Positions 4,028 through 14,147 of a stretch of DNA of 64,000 nt are shown here, in pieces. The notes under the pieces are model-generated. The model was not told where the DNA came from, ran no database searches, and worked only from the letters and a program-made list of their open reading frames with translations. This stretch comes from Pedobacter sp. PACM 27299. GTDB lineage: Bacteria; Bacteroidota; Bacteroidia; Sphingobacteriales; Sphingobacteriaceae. The stretch lies in assembly GCF_001412655.1 (NCBI RefSeq), contig NZ_CP012996.1, positions 5,332,001 to 5,396,000 of the forward strand, read 5' to 3'. Every line of letters starts with the position of its first letter. Positions within the stretch are counted from its first letter, which is position 1. The position numbers and the translations under genes were made by a program.

Positions 4028-5341
4028 TTAAATGATTTGATTTAAAATCAGCACCCCAAACAAACCAATTACTGCCACCAATGTTTCCATCACCGACCAG
4101 GAGCGAACTGTTTCTTTAATACTCAGGTTAAAGTACTCCTTAAACATCCAGAATCCCGGGTCATTGACATGGGAAAACATCAAACTTCCTGCACCAATAG
4201 AAAGCACCATCAGTTCTGGATTTACATTAGAATTGACCATTAGTGGTGCTATAATCCCTGCTGCTGTTAATCCTGCTACTGTTGCAGAGCCCAGACATAC
4301 CCGAATGACTGCTGCGATCAGCCAACCTAAAAACAAAGGTTCTATCGACCATCCTGCCAATACGTTTCCAATTTCTACACTCACTCCGCTATCTGAAAGG
4401 ATCTGCTTTAATGCTCCAGAGCCTGCAATAATCAATAAAATCATGGCAATATCTTTAACTGCTTCTCCATAAATCGACATCACCTGTTTCATGCTTTTCC
4501 CCATTTTTATACCCAGTGTAAAAGTCGTTACACAGAGGGTAAGCAGCATTACAATCGAAGGTTCTGCTAAGAATCCGGCGAAGCTGGTTACCGTGCTATC
4601 ATCTTTAAACAGCAAGACACCTACCGTAGTCAGGGCCATTACAATGACCGGTAATAAAGCAGAAATGAAACTGTTCCGGGCTGTCGGCAGCTGATCTTCC
4701 GGTAAATCATCAGATTGAAAAGTTTTCAAAGGAACTGCCACAATCCCCTTTAATGTCCTGGCGTACAATGGCCCTGCAATGACAATGGCGGGAATGGCCA
4801 GTAAAATCCCATAAAGCATCGTCATGCCCATATTGGCATGAAACTGCAGCACCAATGCGGCTGGAGAAGGGTGAGGCGGTAAAAAACCATGGGTAACCGA
4901 TAATGCGGCTAGCATAGGCAGGCCCAGATATACTGCAGGTAATTTATACTTGTACACCACTGAAAATATTAAGGGCACCATCAGTACAAAACCTACATTA
5001 TAGAACAAAGGAATTCCGATAATAAAGCCAGTAGTCATCAAACCCCATTGAATATATTTACGCCCAAAGATCTTCATCATCACCGAAGCAATTTTCTGTG
5101 CTGCGCCACTTGCAGCCACCAGCTTACCCAGCATCGCACCAAATACGATCACCATAATGAGCGAGCCAAGAATGTCTCCTACTCCTTTTTGCAAGGACTT
5201 CGTGATTCCGGACAAGGGAATCCCCAGTAAGACCCCAGCAAGAATGGAGACTAATAAAAATGCGATGAAAGCATTTACTTTGCCCCAGGTGGTCAGTAAA
5301 ACGAGTAATAGTATAGCGCCTACAACGATAAATAAGGTCAT
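4028..5341 (-). CDS. Gluconate:H+ symporter, GntP family
   Basis: A 437-residue polytopic carrier with GntP-family features: a Gly-rich N-terminal half (KGVGDILGSLIMVIVFGAMLG near 55), the conserved HGFLPPHPSP segment near 150, and a late GSATVAGLTAAGI stretch near 355 with a GSLMFSHVNDPGFW motif near 390. Members import gluconate and related sugar acids with protons. The gene lies 12 bases downstream of a GH20 hexosaminidase gene on the same strand, so the two probably share a message. Given the nearby PLP lyase / PfkB kinase / RidA operon, an amino-sugar acid such as D-glucosaminate is a plausible substrate. That is inference; family members differ in substrate. Confidence 0.92.
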   Translation of the reverse strand: MTLFIVVGAILLLVLLTTWGKVNAFIAFLLVSILAGVLLGIPLSGITKSLQKGVGDILGSLIMVIVFGAMLGKLVAASGAAQKIASVMMKIFGRKYIQWGLMTTGFIIGIPLFYNVGFVLMVPLIFSVVYKYKLPAVYLGLPMLAALSVTHGFLPPHPSPAALVLQFHANMGMTMLYGILLAIPAIVIAGPLYARTLKGIVAVPLKTFQSDDLPEDQLPTARNSFISALLPVIVMALTTVGVLLFKDDSTVTSFAGFLAEPSIVMLLTLCVTTFTLGIKMGKSMKQVMSIYGEAVKDIAMILLIIAGSGALKQILSDSGVSVEIGNVLAGWSIEPLFLGWLIAAVIRVCLGSATVAGLTAAGIIAPLMVNSNVNPELMVLSIGAGSLMFSHVNDPGFWMFKEYFNLSIKETVRSWSVMETLVAVIGLFGVLILNQII

Positions 5342-5353
5342 GGATTATGGGAT

Positions 5354-7738
5354 TTATTGGATTATAATTTCATCTGCCATCAGCCAGGCCTTTTCTCCTT
5401 CTCCATAAGATCCTTTCGGAATAGTTCCTACATTTTCTCCGACCACCCGTACATATCGTACTTGCTGAGCAGGAAAACGGGCCTGAACTTTATTGATCCC
5501 ATCTTTTTCAAAATTCTCTCTAGTATATATTTCTTTAAAATTTGTTCCGTCTGCTGACACCAGAAAGCGAAGTCGTGTTGGTGCCCACATCCGCTGCCAA
5601 TGGTAATTTAAAATATTGATTCCAATATTGGATACCGGTGTCAGTTTACCTAGGTCTACCACCGCATCCAGGTCTTTCCCGCTAAAGCCTAACCATTGAC
5701 CGTCATTGAACCTATGGTGTCCTTCCATGCCATTCAACAGCAGGTTTGCCGGAAAAGCATATTTTCCTGCTGGCGGATTTACCAAGGTAATTTTCTTTTG
5801 CGAACCCAGGTGATGCTGGAACTGCTGGTTAAACACCCTTCCTGTCGGCTTTTTCCCCACAAATAACTGCGCATTCAATACCATCGAACGGTTTAATAAA
5901 ATTGGCTGCTGGTACAGTTTGCTGCTGGCTACTGGTTTTGAACCATCAGTAGTGTACCTAATTAATGCCTTAGGTAAAGTAGTTTTTAGCGCAAGCGTTC
6001 CAACCTGTCCCACTTCATTTTTTGATTCTGCAGTAAGCTCATCAAAATAAGGGAAATAGTTCACATTTTTCTTTTTGAGCAAAGCTTCCTGCTGACGTAA
6101 TTTGTTTAAAAACCAAGGATAGTTTTTCCGGCCTCTTTCCGACCAGGCGATTTCCGATACGGCCAATGCACGTGGAAAAACCATATACTCCAAGTGTTTT
6201 TCGTCACTCATATATTCCGTCCATACCGCTGCCTGAATTCCTTTAATGTAACCTGCTTCTTCCGGACTTAGCGCATCAGGAACAGGCTCATAAGCGTAAA
6301 CCTTTGATAATGGAGTATAATTCCCTGCTGCTATTGGTTCATTCTTATTTAAACTCTGGTAATAGTCCAGGTACAATAGATTTTCAGGCGTCATAATGAC
6401 TTCATAACCGGCTTTTGCCGCAGCAATACCACTTTGTTCTCCTCTCCAGTTCATGATTGTGGTACTTTTAGAAATGCCACCTTCCAGTACCTCATCCCAG
6501 CCAATGGCTTTTTTATTTTTACCTGCCAGATAACGCTCTATGCGCTTCATAAAATAACCCTGCAGTTCATGTTCATCTTTAAGACCTTCATCTTTGATGC
6601 GCTTTTGACATTTCGGACAATGCTCCCATTTTAATTTAGGGCATTCATCACCGCCAATATGGATATAGGCATAGGGAAACAGGCTGATCACTTCATCCAA
6701 AACGTCTTCCATGAAAGTGTAAACCTGTTCATTACCGGCGCAAAAGACATCATCAAATACACCCCAAAACTGTGCAGTCTGATAAGGTCCACCGGTACAT
6801 CCCAATTCTGGATAAGCTGTCAGTGCTGCCAGTGCATGCCCTGGCATTTCGATCTCCGGCAATACGTTCACATATTTAGAACCTGCATAAGCCACCACTT
6901 CTTTGACCTGTTCCTGCGTATAATATCCACCATATTTCTTCCCATCAAAAGTATGTGGACTTTCTTTTTTATGGCCGATAATCGTTCCTGATCGCCATGC
7001 GGCAATAGATTGCAGTTTAGGATATTTCTTTATTTCTATACGCCAGCCTTGATCTTCTGTCAGGTGCCAATGAAAAACATTGAATTTATAAAGGGAAAGA
7101 AGATCAATAAACCTTTTCAAGAAATCAACGCTGTATAAATGCCTGCCTACATCCAGGTGCATTCCTCTATAATTAAAACGGGGGTAATCCTTAATTATTC
7201 CCTGAGGCAATGACAATATGTTATTTTCAGAACGAGATAATAATTGCATCAGCGATTGAATGCCATAAAATACACCTGCAGGATCATGTCCAACAATGGC
7301 GATCTTATTGTCCTGAATGGCCAACTGGTAACCACTTTGCTCTTTTACCTTTACCGAATCCAGTTCAAGTATCAGCTGCTGACTTGAAGTTCTACCTTTC
7401 CCAAAACCGATGGTAGCCGCTATCGTATTTTCGGGCTGTGGCTTTAAAGGGAGCCCATAACCAGTATAGGAACGGATCGCTTCATTGAGCAGGGCTGCAT
7501 CCGCGGCTAAAGATTCAGGGTAATAAATAGCGGTTTCCGGATGAATAAATGTCTTCAGGCCTGTACTTTTTGCATAAACTGGTTCGGGAATCACCCGAAA
7601 TAAGGAATCCTGAGCATATAATGCCCTACCTGAAAATAGTAATGCCACCATCAGAATCAGCTTAAAGCTGAGCTTTAAATATCGACCTTTGTTCTTCCGT
7701 TTGTTTCCGAAAATCATACCTGTACATTTGGTTTGCAT
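5354..7738 (-). CDS. Beta-N-acetylhexosaminidase, GH20, with C-terminal F5/8-type domain
   Basis: A secreted exo-enzyme releasing terminal GlcNAc or GalNAc from chitin oligomers or glycans. The order is a signal peptide (hydrophobic run ending LYAQ near 43; a start at ATG 7717 would give a shorter n-region), a GH20b-like N domain (about 45-185), the GH20 barrel (about 185-540) with HWHLTEDQGWRIEI and the catalytic pair D364-E365 in HIGGDE, a small chitobiase C-like domain (about 580-650, IRYTTDGSKP), and a jelly-roll F5/8 or CBM32-like domain to the end. GH20 uses substrate-assisted catalysis with this Asp-Glu pair. The gntP-like gene follows within 12 bases. Divergent from the second GH20 at 7881. 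Confidence 0.93.
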   Translation of the reverse strand: MQTKCTGMIFGNKRKNKGRYLKLSFKLILMVALLFSGRALYAQDSLFRVIPEPVYAKSTGLKTFIHPETAIYYPESLAADAALLNEAIRSYTGYGLPLKPQPENTIAATIGFGKGRTSSQQLILELDSVKVKEQSGYQLAIQDNKIAIVGHDPAGVFYGIQSLMQLLSRSENNILSLPQGIIKDYPRFNYRGMHLDVGRHLYSVDFLKRFIDLLSLYKFNVFHWHLTEDQGWRIEIKKYPKLQSIAAWRSGTIIGHKKESPHTFDGKKYGGYYTQEQVKEVVAYAGSKYVNVLPEIEMPGHALAALTAYPELGCTGGPYQTAQFWGVFDDVFCAGNEQVYTFMEDVLDEVISLFPYAYIHIGGDECPKLKWEHCPKCQKRIKDEGLKDEHELQGYFMKRIERYLAGKNKKAIGWDEVLEGGISKSTTIMNWRGEQSGIAAAKAGYEVIMTPENLLYLDYYQSLNKNEPIAAGNYTPLSKVYAYEPVPDALSPEEAGYIKGIQAAVWTEYMSDEKHLEYMVFPRALAVSEIAWSERGRKNYPWFLNKLRQQEALLKKKNVNYFPYFDELTAESKNEVGQVGTLALKTTLPKALIRYTTDGSKPVASSKLYQQPILLNRSMVLNAQLFVGKKPTGRVFNQQFQHHLGSQKKITLVNPPAGKYAFPANLLLNGMEGHHRFNDGQWLGFSGKDLDAVVDLGKLTPVSNIGINILNYHWQRMWAPTRLRFLVSADGTNFKEIYTRENFEKDGINKVQARFPAQQVRYVRVVGENVGTIPKGSYGEGEKAWLMADEIIIQ

Positions 7739-7880
7739 ATTTTTTGCAACAAAACACGCGTTTCAAACATAAGAATTAAATAATTAAGTTTCTGCTCCTC
7801 AATTAATTTATTCAGAAGAAGTTCCTTGACTTGCAGATTAATGATGTAAATACTATATTAGGCTTATAATCGGTATAAAA

Positions 7881-10517
7881 ATGAGACGACTACTGCCACT
7901 GTTCCCCATGGTTTTATGGGCATTCCTTGCTCCTGCTCAAGCGAAAAAAGACGCATCAGATGCAAAAAACATTGCAATTAATTGGCAAATAATAGAGAAT
8001 AGCCATGCTGGCGCAGGTCAATTCCTATCTGTATTGAATGTTCAAAACAACAGTGAAATTCCTTTAATGAACAAAAACTGGAAGTTATATTTCAATTTTG
8101 CGAGAAGAATCCTAACCAAAACAGTGACTGGGGAAGTAGACATTGTACATGTCAATGGAGACTTGTACTATATTCGTCCAACTGATAAATTCGTCCCTAT
8201 TAGTAATGGAGCTTCCGTAAATATTGAGTTTGCCTCCAGCGATTGGGCAGTAAATTTCACTGATGCTCCGGAAGGCTTTTACCTGATTTATGATCATGAT
8301 CCAAAAAAACCTATTCCTATAAAAAATGTGAAGGCTATTCCTTCTACCAGTCCGGCACAATTTGCCAGAAATAAACAGGATCGTGTGCCTGCGATCACTC
8401 CTGAACTCATCTACGAAGAGAACAAAATCATTACGAACCTACCAGATAAGGACCTTCAAAAGGTATTCCCTACTCCAGTAACCTATGAAAAAAAGAGCGG
8501 CAGTTTTATCCTGGATCAAAGTGTCAAAATAACAGCAGATCCATCATTTAGCGATGAAAGAAATTTCCTAAACGAAAAGATAGGGCTGCTATTGACCTCT
8601 GGAAAAGTAGTCAGTGGTAAAACAATCCATGGTAAAGCTGCAGTTAAAGGGCTTGCGGATAAAAAGATTCTATTAAAACTGGATAAATCAATTGCAAAAG
8701 AAGGTTATATCTTAAACATCAATCAAAATAGCCTGGCGATCAGCGCTGCTGATCCAACAGGAATATTCTATGGCATTCAATCTTTACTCAGCAGCTTTCC
8801 ACCGCAGAAAAGAGGCGTAAAAGTAGCCAGCATTACCATTCAAAATGCGCTGGTTCAAGATCAGCCACGTTTCCCATTCCGGGGATTGATGATCGATGTG
8901 GCGAGAAACTTCCAGACTAAAGAAGAAATCATCAAACTTTTAGACCTGATGGGCATGTATAAACTGAACGTTTTACACTTCCATTTAAATGACGATGAAG
9001 GCTGGAGGCTCGAGATTCAAGGCTTGCCTGAGCTGACCGAAATCGGCTCAAGAAGGGGACATCCTATAGACAGTAATGCAAATTACCTGATTCCATCATT
9101 TGGTTCTGGGCCATTTATGAACAATCCACATGGTACTGGCCATTACAGTATTGCTGATTTCATTGCCATTTTAAAACACGCCAATGCCAGACACATCCGC
9201 GTGATTCCAGAAATCGAAGCTCCAGGACACGCTAGAGCAGCGGTCCGCTCCATGGAGATCCGTTACCACAGATTAATGAAATCAGGTAAGCCAGAAGCCG
9301 CAGCGGAATATCTGTTACAAGACCTTAACGACCCTTCTACCTACCGTTCGGTACAAAATTGGAACGACAATGTGATTGATCCTGCACTTCCTTCCGCCTA
9401 TAATTTTATGGAAAAGGTAACTGATGAGATCATGGCTATGTACAAAGCAGCAAATGCGCCGCTGGAAACTATACATTTTGGTGGCGATGAAGTTCCTGAT
9501 GGTGCATGGGAAGCTTCTCCAACTAGTTTAGCCTTTGTAAAAGCAAATCCGGAATTAAAAGATGTAAACGGTTTATGGGCATATTTTTACACCCGCCTAA
9601 ATGAGATGCTGAAGAAAAAGAAGCTGTATTTATCCGGCTGGGAAGAAGTAGGCATGCAGCCTGTAGTTGCCAGTGGAAAGAAATCTTATGTGATCAATCC
9701 AGGACTAGCCGATAAAAATATCCATTTAAATGTATGGAACAACATCATTGGCTGGGGAGCAGAAGACCTTGCTTATCGCTTGGCAAATGTGGGCTATAAA
9801 GTCATATTGGGTGGTGTGAGTAATTTCTATTTCGATATGGCTTATCAAAAATCATTCGATGAACCTGGTTATTACTGGGGCGAATATGCCGATATCGACA
9901 AGGCTTTTAATTTCATTCCCTTCAATTCTTTCCTAAATTCCAACAAAGACAAATTCGGCAATACCTTAAAAGAAGGTTTTTACGATTCAAAAGAACGTTT
10001 AACTGCTAAAGGAAAGGCGAACATCGTTGGTTTACAAGGATTATTATGGAGTGAGACAATCAAAGGATCGAAAGATCTGGAATATATGATCATGCCCAAA
10101 TTGCTGGGATTAGCAGAAAGAGCCTGGGCTACCGATCCGGAATGGGCAAATGAACCGGATTCTATCAAAAGAAAACAATTGTACAACCGTGCCTGGTCGC
10201 AATTTGTAAATGTAGTTGGCAAAAGAGAGCTGCCAAGAATTGATGCAGCGTTTGAATCGATGAATTACAGGCTCCCTACAGCTGGCGCAGCGGTTAAAGA
10301 TGGCCTGGTACATTTGAACATTCAGTTCCCTGGTTTAACCATCAGATATACAACAGACAATTCAGAACCGACTATAAACAGCACGGTTTATACCAAACCA
10401 ATTCCGGCAAAAGGCTCCATCAGATTCCGTACGTTTGATAGTAAGGGAAGGGGTGGAAAAACAAGTTCGATACATCCAGAAGAGAATTGGACGGCAAGCC
10501 CTAAGCAGCTGCCATAA
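7881..10517 (+). CDS. Beta-N-acetylhexosaminidase, GH20, with N-terminal carbohydrate-binding domain
   Basis: An 878-residue enzyme with a signal peptide (cleavage likely after APAQA near 22). An N-terminal chitobiase-type carbohydrate-binding domain (about 30-165) is followed by a GH20b domain (about 195-325), the GH20 barrel (about 325-780) and a C-terminal Ig-like domain (about 800-865, IRYTTDNSEP). The catalytic Asp-Glu is D536-E537 in HFGGDE. This layout matches bacterial chitobiases, which split chitobiose-type oligomers to GlcNAc. It differs from the other GH20 here, which lacks the N-terminal binding domain and has an F5/8-type tail. The deoR gene follows after 59 bases, probably in the same transcript. 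Confidence 0.93.
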   Translation: MRRLLPLFPMVLWAFLAPAQAKKDASDAKNIAINWQIIENSHAGAGQFLSVLNVQNNSEIPLMNKNWKLYFNFARRILTKTVTGEVDIVHVNGDLYYIRPTDKFVPISNGASVNIEFASSDWAVNFTDAPEGFYLIYDHDPKKPIPIKNVKAIPSTSPAQFARNKQDRVPAITPELIYEENKIITNLPDKDLQKVFPTPVTYEKKSGSFILDQSVKITADPSFSDERNFLNEKIGLLLTSGKVVSGKTIHGKAAVKGLADKKILLKLDKSIAKEGYILNINQNSLAISAADPTGIFYGIQSLLSSFPPQKRGVKVASITIQNALVQDQPRFPFRGLMIDVARNFQTKEEIIKLLDLMGMYKLNVLHFHLNDDEGWRLEIQGLPELTEIGSRRGHPIDSNANYLIPSFGSGPFMNNPHGTGHYSIADFIAILKHANARHIRVIPEIEAPGHARAAVRSMEIRYHRLMKSGKPEAAAEYLLQDLNDPSTYRSVQNWNDNVIDPALPSAYNFMEKVTDEIMAMYKAANAPLETIHFGGDEVPDGAWEASPTSLAFVKANPELKDVNGLWAYFYTRLNEMLKKKKLYLSGWEEVGMQPVVASGKKSYVINPGLADKNIHLNVWNNIIGWGAEDLAYRLANVGYKVILGGVSNFYFDMAYQKSFDEPGYYWGEYADIDKAFNFIPFNSFLNSNKDKFGNTLKEGFYDSKERLTAKGKANIVGLQGLLWSETIKGSKDLEYMIMPKLLGLAERAWATDPEWANEPDSIKRKQLYNRAWSQFVNVVGKRELPRIDAAFESMNYRLPTAGAAVKDGLVHLNIQFPGLTIRYTTDNSEPTINSTVYTKPIPAKGSIRFRTFDSKGRGGKTSSIHPEENWTASPKQLP

Positions 10518-10576
10518 GTACAAAATTTGCCTGTTTTTTATAATTAAGCCGTATTATTGTAATCATATCATTAGTA

Positions 10577-11353
10577 ATGACTACCGACCAACAACCAGCT
10601 CCATTAACAAAAGCACAGCGTAAGCAGCTCATTGTTAAAGAAATTAACATCCATACCCGCGCTACATTTGAACATCTGGCATTGATCGTCAATGTATCTG
10701 AAGATACCATCAGAAGAGATATTAATGAACTGGAAAAAGAAAACCTGGTGATTAAGGTAAAGGGTGGAGCAATGGCTAGTGCTTACCACCATACTTCTGA
10801 GCAAAAAGCTTATTCTCAGGACGATAAAATCACCATCGCTCAAAAACTACTTCCCTTACTGAAAAAAGATATGCTTTTGCTGCTTGGTGGCGGTACTACC
10901 ATCAGGGAATTCATTAAACTCATTCCCGGAAACCTGAGGATCACCATTGTGACCGCCAGTGTTTTATCAGCAGTAGAATTACTGGACAAACCGAATGTGA
11001 GAACAATTATGCTTGGCGGACAAATTTCTACTTATAGCCAAATGTGCTTTAGCGGGGATGTGTTCAATCAACTCTCACACCTTAAAACTGACCTTTGCAT
11101 ATTGGGAACAAATGCATTGGATATTGAAGGTGGTTTTTCCGATTCTGACTGGGATACAGTACAAGTAAAAAAGGCTATGCTGGCTTCTTCTGATAAGGTA
11201 GCGATCGTGTCCATTTCCGAGAAACTGAATTCTACGATGAAGATCAAAATTGCCAACTTATCAGAAGTGGATTATATTGTGACGGAGCTTCCACCAGATG
11301 CCCCATTATTGGATCCTTACAAACGGGCAAACCCGAACCTTACTTTTCTATAA
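10577..11353 (+). CDS. DeoR-family transcriptional regulator
   Basis: A 258-residue regulator with an N-terminal winged helix (about 12-65, containing VSEDTIRRDINELE, the DeoR recognition helix) and a C-terminal sugar-phosphate sensor domain with LLLGGGTTIREF near 95 and a DLCILGTNALD segment near 170. DeoR proteins usually repress sugar catabolic genes and release DNA on binding a phosphorylated intermediate. Neighbours include a sugar-acid permease and a PfkB kinase, so a keto-deoxy sugar-acid phosphate is a reasonable effector guess. Candidate operators are the palindromes at 14037-14069 and 14117-14147. Its stop codon abuts the stop codon of the convergent lyase gene with no intervening base. 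Confidence 0.92.
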   Translation: MTTDQQPAPLTKAQRKQLIVKEINIHTRATFEHLALIVNVSEDTIRRDINELEKENLVIKVKGGAMASAYHHTSEQKAYSQDDKITIAQKLLPLLKKDMLLLLGGGTTIREFIKLIPGNLRITIVTASVLSAVELLDKPNVRTIMLGGQISTYSQMCFSGDVFNQLSHLKTDLCILGTNALDIEGGFSDSDWDTVQVKKAMLASSDKVAIVSISEKLNSTMKIKIANLSEVDYIVTELPPDAPLLDPYKRANPNLTFL

Positions 11354-12460
11354 CTAGATAGAGATCTTTTTATCCCTGGCCTTGATGCTCCAGCTCTTTT
11401 CAATCTGTTGATTATTGACCACCTGTGCTTCTTCATATAATGCACAGGAAGGACAAACATGATATGGGAGACCGTAAATCCGGTCTCCAACTTTATATAT
11501 CGTTGGTCCAACATGTTTCAAAGTCAGGTGTTCTTCGGAATGCCCTATTGGTATCAGATCTGGATTCCATGGAAAAACCACCCGCTTCTCTATTGGATTT
11601 TCAGAAGAAACAGACTTATATCCTAAATCTACACATAAAAGCCCCGGTGTCGGTAAAGAGATCACACTGCAGACCAATACCGCTGCAGGTTTAAACGCCA
11701 ATTCCGGCAATAACCTGGTATAATTCTCATCCCAGAACACAAAGGTTCCCGGACTACACTCCAGCCTTTCTATCCTGGCATAATAAGAAAATGTATTGGA
11801 ACCACCGGCTACGATTTTTAAATCGCTAAAACCCTGCCTGATCAGCTCATCCGCATCTGCAAGCACTTTATCCATCGCTGGTTTGGCACGAGCTGCACGG
11901 ATCGCCGGATCAGGATCATGGATATGACCATCATATACATGTAAGCCCATAAACTTCAAACCACTGATTTCATTCAAAGCATTTACAAAGGCAAGCACAT
12001 CTTCTGAAGCAGGAAAGCCTGTTCTATTCATGCCCGTATTCAGATCCAGATATACTTTTACTTCCTGACCTTTTGCTGCAGCTCCAATCTCCCGCGCCGT
12101 ATCCAGGTTATCTACCAAACAGGAAAACGAACATTCAGGGAAAGCGGCAATCAGCGCCATCAGTCTATGAATCTTAAAGCCCACCGGCTGATAGGCAATC
12201 ATCACATCTGTCATCCCATTTAAAGCAGCAAGTTCTGCTTCTGCAATGGTTGCACATTTGATTTTATATAGGCCATAGCTGGCAAAAATCTGGAGTACCT
12301 CCCCCATTTTATGGGTCTTAATGTGTGGCCTGAATCTGGATACATCACCAGAAAGCAAATCGATTGCCATTTCAATATTCTGCTTAATGCGGTCTTCGTA
12401 CACCACAAATAAAGGGGTATCATATTGATCCAGATTAGAGATCTTCTGCCAGTTTTCCAT
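11354..12460 (-). CDS. PLP fold-III D-hydroxyamino-acid lyase (D-serine dehydratase / D-threonine aldolase family)
   Basis: A 368-residue protein with an alanine-racemase-type N-terminal barrel: the PHIKTHK motif places the likely PLP lysine at K48. The C-terminal metal site reads H334-V-C336, in YHVCPSC. From family knowledge, His-x-Cys is typical of zinc D-serine dehydratases, while D-threonine aldolases carry His-x-Asp, so a dehydratase reaction (alpha-amino, beta-hydroxy acid to keto acid plus ammonia) is favoured. It follows a PfkB kinase by 24 bases and RidA, which clears imine products of PLP dehydratases. D-glucosaminate is an attractive substrate because the product would be 2-keto-3-deoxygluconate, but this is untested. 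Confidence 0.85.
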   Translation of the reverse strand: MENWQKISNLDQYDTPLFVVYEDRIKQNIEMAIDLLSGDVSRFRPHIKTHKMGEVLQIFASYGLYKIKCATIAEAELAALNGMTDVMIAYQPVGFKIHRLMALIAAFPECSFSCLVDNLDTAREIGAAAKGQEVKVYLDLNTGMNRTGFPASEDVLAFVNALNEISGLKFMGLHVYDGHIHDPDPAIRAARAKPAMDKVLADADELIRQGFSDLKIVAGGSNTFSYYARIERLECSPGTFVFWDENYTRLLPELAFKPAAVLVCSVISLPTPGLLCVDLGYKSVSSENPIEKRVVFPWNPDLIPIGHSEEHLTLKHVGPTIYKVGDRIYGLPYHVCPSCALYEEAQVVNNQQIEKSWSIKARDKKISI

Positions 12461-12484
12461 ATTTCAGTATTTAATTACAAGGTT

Positions 12485-13507
12485 TTACCTATTGATTTTA
12501 GTGGAGATTCCACTTTGTATAAATGATTCAATTTCGGACTTGCTGATCAGTGCCCAGTCGCCATGTACACTTTGTTTCATAACGCCGCAGGCTGTTGCCC
12601 AATTGATCATTTTTTCAGGGCTAAAACCTGAAGAAAGGCCATAAAGGAGTCCTGCAGTAAAAGCATCCCCTGTTCCAATCTGATCGGTCACCAATGGAAG
12701 GGTATGAATGGTAGAATAATAAAACTTTCCTTCATGAGCTAAACCCGCAAAATAAACATGATTTAGTCCCTCCACTACTCTAAAGCTCATGGCAAAGGTT
12801 TGAAGCAAAGGCATTTTATCTTTAAGCAGGGCAAAGCAATGTTCAAATCTGTCGGTTAATGGTAGATTTTCCTCTGCTTTAATACCGAAATAAATGGCCA
12901 CACTGTCCAGATCTGCAACTGCCACCTTGCAGTAAGCGAGTAATTCCGGCATCACTTCTTTTGCTTCCTGCCCGTAGTTCCATAGTTTTCTACGGTAGTT
13001 GAAATCGGCAGAGATGGTGATTCCTTTTTCATGCGCCAGGTTGATTCCTTCGCTGCAGACTGCTGCTGCACTAGCAGATAAGGCAGCTGCGATCCCCGAC
13101 CAGTGGAACAATGTGGTATCCACAAGCTGTTTTTCCCAGTCGATCATTCCCGGTTTAAGCTGAGAAAAAGAAGAACCCGAACGGTCATAAATGACTTGAG
13201 TTGGGCGGATATGGTTACCGTTCTCCACATAATAAGTGCCGATACGCTCTCCACCTTTAGCTATTCCGCTGGTATTTACACCATATTTTCGCAGCTCAGC
13301 AATTGCCATTTCTGCCAAATCGTTATCAGGGAGCCTGCTCAGCATCCGGCTGTCCAGACCTAACCTCGCCAATAGCACCGCAACATTAGCTTCTGCACCG
13401 GCAACATAGATATTTAAAGCAGCAGACTGGATCAATCGCAAACCCATCTGCGTATTGAAACGCAATAAGATTTCACCAAAACAGGTAATACAAGGAGTCA
13501 AATTCAT
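12485..13507 (-). CDS. PfkB-family carbohydrate kinase, 2-keto-3-deoxygluconate kinase-like
   Basis: A 340-residue ribokinase-fold enzyme. The N terminus has GEILLRFNT and AGAEANVAVLLARLG, typical of 2-keto-3-deoxygluconate kinases (KdgK). The C-terminal PfkB signature reads QIGTGDAFTAGL, with catalytic base D281 and the anion hole just before it. The expected reaction phosphorylates a keto-deoxy sugar acid with ATP. It lies between ridA (15 bases upstream) and the PLP lyase (24 bases downstream), so one operon is clear. If the lyase makes KDG, this kinase would give KDPG. A KDPG aldolase was not seen in the window. Other PfkB substrates such as fructose remain possible. Confidence 0.85.
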   Translation of the reverse strand: MNLTPCITCFGEILLRFNTQMGLRLIQSAALNIYVAGAEANVAVLLARLGLDSRMLSRLPDNDLAEMAIAELRKYGVNTSGIAKGGERIGTYYVENGNHIRPTQVIYDRSGSSFSQLKPGMIDWEKQLVDTTLFHWSGIAAALSASAAAVCSEGINLAHEKGITISADFNYRRKLWNYGQEAKEVMPELLAYCKVAVADLDSVAIYFGIKAEENLPLTDRFEHCFALLKDKMPLLQTFAMSFRVVEGLNHVYFAGLAHEGKFYYSTIHTLPLVTDQIGTGDAFTAGLLYGLSSGFSPEKMINWATACGVMKQSVHGDWALISKSEIESFIQSGISTKINR

Positions 13508-13522
13508 GGGGACTAAATTAGC

Positions 13523-13990
13523 TTAAACCAATTCAAATAGGCCTTCTACCTCTACGGGGATACGTCCGGGAAGAGAACCCATTCCTACTGCACTTCTTAC
13601 ACCGATCCCATTTTCATGACCCCAAACTGATTCAAACAACTCACTGCAGCCATTGATCACGTAAGGATGACTTTCGAAATCGGAAGTACAGCCTACCATT
13701 CCCAATACTTTGATCACACGTTTTATCGAATTAAGGCTTCCGAAATTGGCTACAATAGTAGAAAGTATGGTCAGTCCTACCTGACGGGCGGCCAGTTTCC
13801 CCTGGTCTTTGTCCATATCATCGCCAATACGGCCAATAATCAGACTACCATCCGTTTGAACGGGACCATGACCAGAGAGGTATAAATATTTACCGTCGAT
13901 CAGGTAAGGTTTATAGATCCCCAACGGCTTTGGGGCAGGTGGTAAGGTTAAACCTAAGTTCAAAAAGCGGTCTTGCGCAGTTATATTCAT
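13523..13990 (-). CDS. RidA/YjgF-family protein
   Basis: A 155-residue protein of the RidA superfamily (LYLSGHGPVQTDGS near 30; IGVRSAVGMGSLPGRIPVEVEG near the end). This longer branch of the family often sits with amino-acid or amino-sugar catabolic genes. RidA proteins hydrolyse reactive enamine/imine products of PLP-dependent dehydratases to keto acids, so placement in one operon with a PLP dehydratase-like enzyme fits. The family arginine expected in the active site falls in the VRSAVG segment. First gene of the ridA / kinase / lyase operon, with a TATATTTG -7 element at 14020-14027 and a palindrome just upstream. Confidence 0.88.
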   Translation of the reverse strand: MNITAQDRFLNLGLTLPPAPKPLGIYKPYLIDGKYLYLSGHGPVQTDGSLIIGRIGDDMDKDQGKLAARQVGLTILSTIVANFGSLNSIKRVIKVLGMVGCTSDFESHPYVINGCSELFESVWGHENGIGVRSAVGMGSLPGRIPVEVEGLFELV

Positions 13991-14019: not shown

Positions 14020-14027
14020 CAAATATA
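14020..14027 (-). promoter_or_regulatory. Candidate -7 element of the ridA operon
   Basis: Minus-strand TATATTTG matches TAnnTTTG and lies 29 bases before the ridA ATG. No clean TTG is seen at the -33 position; that region is covered by the palindrome at 14037-14069, consistent with a regulated promoter. Confidence 0.45.
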
Positions 14028-14036
14028 TCAATCCCA

Positions 14037-14069
14037 CGCTAATTTGCGTAAAATTTGCACAAATAAGCG
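14037..14069. promoter_or_regulatory. Operator-like palindrome 1 upstream of ridA
   Basis: A 33-bp near-palindrome with 13 of 16 arm positions complementary. Each arm reads CGCT-n-ATTTG-n-G-n-AAA towards the centre at 14053. It overlaps the expected -33 region of the ridA promoter, the position of a repressor site. The DeoR regulator at 10577 is the nearest candidate binder. Confidence 0.5.
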
Positions 14070-14116: not shown

Positions 14117-14147
14117 CGCTATCCTGCAAAATATTTGCAAAATAGCG
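14117..14147. promoter_or_regulatory. Operator-like palindrome 2 upstream of ridA
   Basis: A 31-bp near-palindrome with 12 of 15 arm positions complementary (arms CGCTAT-nn-TGCAAA), centred at 14132, 79 bp from palindrome 1. The arms share CGCT-A...TG-CAAA with palindrome 1, and both sites are followed by GATT. This suggests two sites for one dimeric regulator, perhaps with looping. Confidence 0.5.

Follow-up and report, generated by a model that had tools for sequence, protein, structure and literature searches.

Pseudoalteromonas prydzensis ACAM 620 uses the chitin-derived sugar acid N-acetyl-D-glucosaminate (GlcNAc1A), as transcriptomic data, deletion mutants and enzyme assays have shown (Jiang et al. 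2022, PMC9537276; here and below, as far as the accessible part of that paper goes). In this ong system, the glycoside hydrolase family 20 (GH20) enzyme OngA is followed by the deacetylase OngB, by the fold-III pyridoxal-phosphate (PLP) deaminase OngC, which converts D-glucosaminate (GlcN1A) to 2-keto-3-deoxygluconate (KDG) and ammonia, and by the kinase KdgK. OngC also accepts D-Ser and D-Thr; a RidA protein, OngD, is essential in a role described as unknown; and the complete pathway was found in Gammaproteobacteria and one Achromobacter (PMC9537276). Here, we analyzed a locus built from similar families in a 64,000-nucleotide stretch, referred to as the window, of Pedobacter sp. PACM 27299 (NZ_CP012996.1, positions 5,332,001 to 5,396,000), whose genome is one 6.15-Mb contig (G000) and whose nearest named relatives are Pedobacter species. 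We consider it probable that the window carries one of the two loci of a regulon that serves growth on an acetamido-aldonic acid, most likely GlcNAc1A from C1-oxidised chitin.

The original prediction had placed a GntP permease, two GH20 enzymes, a DeoR regulator, a fold-III PLP lyase, a PfkB kinase and a RidA protein in this locus. We confirmed the position and family of all seven genes, each of which is intact. The genes, and the operators found around them, are as follows (window positions).

4028–5341, minus strand: GntP-family permease (PF02447, 473 bits; TIGR00791, 486.6 bits against a cut-off of 292.75).
5354–7738, minus strand: GH20 beta-hexosaminidase a (GH20a; PF00728, 407 bits; signal-like N-terminus by eye).
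7734–7748, no strand assigned: operator TGCATATTTTTTGCA, exact, between two divergent units, GH20a-GntP and GH20b-DeoR.
7881–10517, plus strand: GH20 beta-hexosaminidase b (GH20b; PF00728, 285 bits, with PF03173 and PF03174; chitobiase architecture CHB_HEX, GH20, CHB_HEX_C).
10577–11353, plus strand: DeoR-family regulator (PF08220, PF00455).
11354–12460, minus strand: fold-III PLP lyase (PF01168 and PF14031; H-x-C metal site).
12485–13507, minus strand: PfkB kinase of the KDG kinase group (match to 2afb; NF041633, 314 bits, under the cut-off of 700).
13523–13990, minus strand: RidA-family protein RidA1 (RidA/YjgF; PF14588, 42.3 bits).
14020–14027, minus strand: candidate −7 box of Bacteroidota type, TATATTTG, for the RidA1-kinase-lyase operon, called on sequence, 32 bp from the proximal operator.
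14045–14059, minus strand: proximal operator TGCAAATTTTACGCA, one mismatch, in the RidA1 promoter.
14125–14139, no strand assigned: distal operator TGCAAAATATTTGCA, exact, upstream of RidA1.

By strand and spacing, the genes form three units: RidA1-kinase-lyase on the minus strand (gaps of 15 and 24 bp), GH20a-GntP also on the minus strand (12-bp gap), and GH20b-DeoR on the plus strand (59-bp gap). The operator at 7734–7748 overlaps the first codons of the called GH20a open reading frame (ORF); because it covers the first ATG, translation probably begins at a Met further downstream. The R-[STA]-A-[VI]-G motif was kept by all 62 RidA1 relatives compared.

The original prediction took the two GH20 enzymes as a source of amino sugars. 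Both are present, but GH20 enzymes release N-acetylated sugars, so that a deacetylase is needed, and the candidates for deacetylation and for import lie outside the window. An M19-family query from the Flavobacterium clusters described below found a 78% match about 400 kb from the window. This gene closes an operon, SusC-SusD-RidA2-M19 (L105, G000:C1:4929634-4935932; the second locus), whose members best match Flavobacterium cluster genes in our set of locus genes at 64, 61, 85 and 80% identity, respectively. The operon of the M19 and SusCD candidates carries the same operator as the window.

This operator, TGCA-(A/T)7-TGCA, is common to the promoters of both Pedobacter loci and of the Flavobacterium clusters. 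The genome holds five exact copies, four of them in the promoters of the two loci: a pair ahead of SusC, a single copy in the region between GH20a and GH20b, and another upstream of RidA1. The fifth lies in a coding frame in an apparent thiamin-biosynthesis cluster (genes named by eye). In the window, two exact copies were observed and 0.02 expected. As a control, we tried 5120 palindromic patterns, combining 256 half-sites with 10 spacings and 2 spacer types. All three promoters of the PACM 27299 genome were matched by TGCA-7-TGCA alone, in both spacer variants; it also matched 30 of 37 Flavobacterium promoter stretches, and in 100.8 kb of background from the same genome TGCA-(A/T)7-TGCA matched once, at the coding-frame site already known (L112). 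Upstream of RidA in Pedobacter sp. N36a (L020:8310-8365), the operator forms part of a far longer inverted repeat.

The Bacteroidota −7 consensus is TAnnTTTG. In nine promoters measured, the proximal operator lay 32–34 bp upstream of the TATATTTG box: those of RidA1 (with the one-mismatch operator), SusC of the second locus, SusC and the kinase of Pedobacter caeni, and SusC of five Flavobacterium clusters, out of 17 such Flavobacterium promoters. The P. caeni kinase promoter has an exact operator at the same spacing as the proximal operator of RidA1. A repressor bound there would, judging by this spacing, cover the −33 region, and DeoR is the natural candidate for binding these operators.

To place the locus among its relatives, we scanned one genome per species from 84,980 species and studied the best 80 of 587 confirmed relatives, a set biased toward close ones. 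With the window this made 81 sources, of which four lacking a lyase ORF call (L046, L091, L092 and L097) were dropped, leaving 77. Presence of a gene means presence within the stretch examined, up to 10 kb on either side; counts are lowered by genes that the ORF caller overlooked (for example, the M19 gene of L129) and by contig ends that truncate some loci (L051), and are raised by near-identical copies. A KDG kinase was found near the lyase in 22 sources: three Pedobacter (the window, N36a and P. caeni), 18 of the 20 Flavobacterium loci, and one metagenome-assembled genome (MAG; L051). These 22 had GH20 in 21 cases, DeoR in 21, an aldolase for 2-keto-3-deoxy-6-phosphogluconate (KDPG) in 19, M19 in 19 and SusC in 17; among the other 55, the counts were 6, 4, 0, 36 and 5. 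The exact operator was present in 20 of the 22 (not in L039 or L051) versus 1 of the 55.

Seventeen of the 18 kinase-bearing Flavobacterium loci have the order SusC-SusD-GntP-RidA-kinase-KDPG aldolase-lyase-M19, followed by DeoR and GH20; the other, L039, has no Sus pair. Kinase, KDPG aldolase and lyase thus stand in one cluster in Flavobacterium, as do the SusCD pair and GH20. In Pedobacter, SusCD at the second locus and GH20 in the window share the operator, an arrangement of the polysaccharide utilization locus type for which we predict joint control. The layout of the window recurs in N36a and, without the first RidA, in P. caeni. This recurrence, together with the joint presence of kinase, lyase, GH20 and DeoR in 18 of 20 Flavobacterium loci, shows that the grouping of these genes is not accidental. 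When 86 lyases were placed on a tree, the kinase label required 4 changes versus 19.6 in shuffles, and the three Pedobacter rows formed one supported group. Two kinase-free Flavobacterium loci, L027 and L028, nest among the kinase-bearing lyases and retain DeoR and GH20.

The split into two loci is repeated in P. caeni, which has a SusC-SusD-RidA2-M19 operon with two operators. Its window-type operon starts with the kinase and has no RidA1, so that RidA2 is the only RidA seen at its two loci. The second locus of N36a (L127:5508-7250) keeps M19 and two operators. In a Chitinophaga genome (L129), a SusC-SusD-GH20-GntP-RidA-M19 set likewise stands apart from the lyase.

The second-locus M19 protein (PF01244, 154.5 bits) is 75–80% identical to the 20 M19 proteins of Flavobacterium clusters and 56–74% identical to 36 others. 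Its H7, D9, E137, H201, H222, R233 and D302 are invariant in 24 relatives; we take these residues to be the metal ligands and an Arg expected to bind a carboxylate. The subfamily varies very little (mean column identity of 72% in 24 sequences) and is 16–23% identical to solved dipeptidases (ranks 1–20); a fold search assigned the L022 orthologue to the renal-dipeptidase fold, and one solved M19 relative carries an L-Leu-D-Ala mimic. M19 enzymes hydrolyse the link that joins an acyl group to a D-amino acid whose carboxylate is free. By analogy, this substrate geometry is that of GlcNAc1A, and we infer that the 'membrane dipeptidase' is a GlcNAc1A deacetylase. In a sample of 36 Pedobacter genomes, a strong M19 match (E below 1e-170) was found in 14, all of them lyase-bearing (lyase threshold, E ≤ 1e-60), and in none of the 21 lyase-free genomes; G022 has the lyase and no strong M19. 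M19 and lyase are neighbours in 13 of these 14, and the informative cases are therefore the PACM 27299 genome, N36a and P. caeni, in which the two genes lie apart.

We then considered the chemistry of the lyase and kinase. The lyase model (mean predicted local distance difference test score, 90.7) superposed with template-modelling scores of 0.79–0.88 on D-threonine aldolases, BhcC, and the D-serine and D-threo-3-hydroxyaspartate dehydratases. These enzymes (4v15, 6qkb, 3anu and 3wqc) share the fold and family-level PLP chemistry with the lyase at 22–26% identity in fold alignments; the sugar-acid gene context is that of the window. The original prediction read the His-x-Cys metal site as dehydratase-type, and the alignment bore this out. 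D-Threonine aldolases and BhcC have H-x-D, whereas D-serine dehydratase (3anu) has H-x-C, as does D-threo-3-hydroxyaspartate dehydratase according to the titles of its H351A and C353A mutant entries. All 77 lyases compared have H-x-C, and none has the H-x-D site of D-threonine aldolases. Because of this site, the lyase is expected to catalyze elimination rather than C–C bond cleavage, and we propose, by analogy with OngC, that it is a D-glucosaminate ammonia-lyase. On a Haladaptatus plasmid (L132:6959-9764), a related lyase adjoins an annotated D-aminoacylase with a sodium:solute symporter nearby, a partly ong-like arrangement.

The kinase, predicted to be KDG-kinase-like, indeed had as its top solved relative the KDG kinase 2afb (206.7 bits, E 4.5e-60). 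The sole PF01081 aldolase match of the PACM 27299 genome adjoins a second KdgK, in a UxaC/altronate-dehydratase locus. That locus (L106, G000:C1:3492000-3511999) is of the uronate type, with UxaC, altronate dehydratase, KdgK, KdgA, a major facilitator superfamily (MFS) transporter and a DeoR regulator.

From these families, the following order can be proposed. SusC and SusD of the second locus would import fragments across the outer membrane, and the two GH20 enzymes would trim them in the periplasm and release the acid. GntP, for which we propose inner-membrane import of D-glucosaminate or its N-acetyl form, would move the acid into the cytoplasm, where M19 would take off acetate. The lyase would then convert D-glucosaminate to KDG and ammonia, with RidA1 and RidA2 as proposed hydrolases of the enamine/imine after the lyase, and the PfkB kinase would convert KDG to KDPG. 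KDPG aldolase, clustered in Flavobacterium and presumably borrowed from the uronate-type locus in Pedobacter, would yield pyruvate and glyceraldehyde 3-phosphate. DeoR would repress the four transcription units through TGCA-(A/T)7-TGCA. In the known glucosaminate route, carbon also ends at KDPG, but phosphorylation comes first and a different PLP enzyme is used.

The order and chemistry of such a pathway are known from ong, with which the Pedobacter system shares a GH20 enzyme, a fold-III PLP deaminase, a RidA protein, a KDG kinase, TonB-dependent outer-membrane uptake, a regulator, and the same proposed order of steps after uptake (PMC9537276, accessible part). GH20 (OngA), the deaminase (OngC), the kinase and RidA correspond at the family level. 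The two loci, with 11 genes in all, however, have no OngB, a D-aminoacylase-type deacetylase, and M19 stands in its place; the PF07969 matches of the genome, the best in a 581-aa frame, lie outside both loci. Likewise, GntP is found instead of the SSS-family transporter OngIT, and DeoR instead of the MurR/RpiR repressor OngR. Further differences are the SusCD pair, the division into two loci, and the occurrence in Bacteroidota rather than Gammaproteobacteria. We therefore rejected membership in ong, for which OngB, OngIT, OngR and an AA10 lytic polysaccharide monooxygenase (LPMO) were sought and not found, and propose by analogy that the Pedobacter system works like ong with a deacetylase, an inner-membrane transporter and a regulator from other families. 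No gammaproteobacterial locus occurs among the best 80 of the 587 relatives, and no ong cluster was seen in the seven plasmid regions read, out of 489 plasmid records with a match; an E. coli plasmid match proved to be a different cluster (M20, RidA, MFS). Accordingly, the predicted chain from D-glucosaminate through KDG to KDPG with RidA is partly supported, by the same enzyme families in ong and by the clustering in Flavobacterium; as a combination it is not new, being steps 2 and 3 of ong catabolism (PMC9537276).

The ChiUL system of Flavobacterium johnsoniae resembles the Pedobacter loci in using SusCD-type pairs and GH20 for chito-oligosaccharides; it is hydrolytic and runs through NagK, NagA and NagB, and lyase, RidA and KDG kinase are not named in the accessible part of its description (PMC5127042). 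In the accessible parts of the open-access literature (PMC), including PMC12017989 (on OngB), PMC11653859, PMC10535946 and PMC12343721, we found no Bacteroidota pathway for an oxidised chitin sugar acid.

Several results weigh against the proposed pathway, whose weakest links are the substrate, including its stereochemistry, the function given to M19, and the large number of relatives that have no kinase. The operator motif was first spotted by eye in these same promoters. The other genomes of the genus contain 0–15 exact copies each, an ordinary number, so that it is the placement of the operators alone that is informative. Seven of the 37 Flavobacterium stretches lack an exact operator, although two of them (L032 and L035) have one outside the stretch taken; the kinase-free L040 has an exact operator 9 kb from its lyase; and the GH20a/GH20b operator does not show the 32–34-bp spacing to a −7 box. 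The second locus of N36a has no SusC, no SusD and not the middle of RidA2 (the rest of that genome was not searched for them). By whole sequence and predicted fold, the lyase is closest to D-threonine aldolases and BhcC, not to the dehydratases.

The distribution of the kinase counts on the same side. The original prediction had looked to co-occurrence of the families in relatives, and this held for the kinase and lyase in 18 of 20 Flavobacterium loci, but among the 36 genus genomes only that of PACM 27299 has a strong kinase match. The lyase is present in 15 of the 36; in the 14 others it is 41–44% identical to that of the window, and the top kinase match is never near it. Thirteen of these 14 lyases adjoin GntP, RidA and M19, and their flanks are free of a kinase; the fourteenth (L002) has none of GntP, RidA or M19 in its 1.5-kb flanks. 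In all, the stretch examined around the lyase contains no kinase in 55 of the 77 sources. M19 is present in 36 of the 55, so that another D-amino acid could be the substrate of the four-gene core. This kinase-free GntP-RidA-D-TA lyase-M19 operon is widespread in Bacteroidota. It has homologous GntP (about 64% identity in L017), RidA (72–77% in L003–L017), lyase (41–45%) and M19 genes (L003–L015, L017, L058 and others); the stretches examined contain neither kinase nor aldolase nor exact operator, and in most cases no DeoR or GH20 either. A Parabacteroides plasmid carries GntP, RidA, lyase and M19, a Hymenobacter plasmid carries RidA-lyase-M19, and the latter set also occurs in a Verrucomicrobia MAG (L083).

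Finally, the source of the acid is a difficulty. The PACM 27299 genome has no PF03067 match (AA10 LPMO) and no TIGR03074 match (membrane pyrroloquinoline quinone (PQQ) glucose dehydrogenase; other glucose dehydrogenases were not searched), which led us to reject both an LPMO of its own and its own membrane PQQ glucose dehydrogenase as sources. The acid would therefore need to come from other organisms or by an unknown route, and these bacteria would live on chitin ends oxidised by others. Only 1 of the 36 lyase-bearing genomes surveyed (L060 was left out) had an LPMO match. This lone LPMO_10 match, in a 527-aa frame of Flavobacterium sp. KMS (the L034 genome), marks a candidate self-sufficient oxidative pathway. 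The accessible parts of two papers state that no LPMO was known in Bacteroidetes in 2016 (PMC5127042) and list an LPMO in Aquimarina in a later table (PMC10535946).

Three other explanations, each of which we regard as unlikely, were weighed. The first is catabolism of D-serine, D-threonine or dipeptides containing D-amino acids, in which M19 would be a true L-Xaa-D-Xaa dipeptidase, the lyase would dehydrate the D-amino acid, RidA would clear the imine, GntP would be a DsdX-like importer, and the kinase would be part of a different route. GntP does match the DsdX model (222 bits, under the cut-off of 618), the solved M19 relative with its L-Leu-D-Ala mimic fits a dipeptidase, two distant lyase relatives adjoin amino-acid ABC transporters, and the four-gene operon without a kinase is common. 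The original prediction called the D-Ser/D-Thr alternative simpler but noted that the sugar-acid permease and kinase are unexplained by it; it is still alive, since OngC takes both amino acids (PMC9537276). The clustered KDG kinase and KDPG aldolase, the GH20 enzymes, SusCD and the shared operator find no place in it, and we keep it as a possibility mainly where the operon has no kinase. Simple D-serine/D-threonine catabolism was rejected as a full account, because a cluster or an operator is common to the kinase, KDPG aldolase, GH20 and SusCD.

An equally improbable substrate is free, already deacetylated D-glucosaminate, with M19 and SusCD co-regulated for another job. The window alone covers every step from D-glucosaminate to KDPG, and the use of free glucosaminate is known in other bacteria. 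This explanation is countered by the N-acetylated products expected of the GH20 family and by M19, which lies inside the Flavobacterium cluster and, in all three Pedobacter genomes with a kinase-type locus, elsewhere, in an operon that carries the operator.

There is also little likelihood that the substrate is another acetamido-aldonic acid, with the configuration of galactosamine or mannosamine, or the oxidised terminus of a glycan from a host or plant rather than of chitin: GH20 enzymes also act on GalNAc ends and Arcicella and Flectobacillus clusters contain a GH29 fucosidase, but the top solved relative of the kinase is a KDG kinase, and GH20b has the chitobiase architecture in a genome with GH18 matches, two of them strong, although neither kinase nor chitinolytic context fixes the stereochemistry. 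In those clusters (L043:7818-9179 and L065:7837-9195), the GH29 alpha-L-fucosidase gene directly precedes RidA and has SusCD and GH20 next to it, a hint of fucosylated amino-sugar oligosaccharides.

We thus favour growth on GlcNAc1A as the function of the two Pedobacter loci. More tentatively, and with the balance somewhat against it, the M19 subfamily in Bacteroidota at large may be a GlcNAc1A deacetylase independent of OngB. In that case, GntP-RidA-lyase-M19 operons would form a widespread route for scavenging chitin oxidised by others, in bacteria that mostly have no LPMO, and the kinase-free operons would feed a general KDG pool. In the accessible parts of the open-access literature, the use of oxidised chitin is described for Gammaproteobacteria with their own LPMOs and for one betaproteobacterium. 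If our proposal is true, the pathway was assembled more than once, with the Bacteroidota version built partly from unrelated parts, and a function would be given to the many genes that at present carry the names 'D-TA family enzyme' or 'membrane dipeptidase'. It would also suggest cross-feeding, in which these bacteria live on chitin opened by other microbes.

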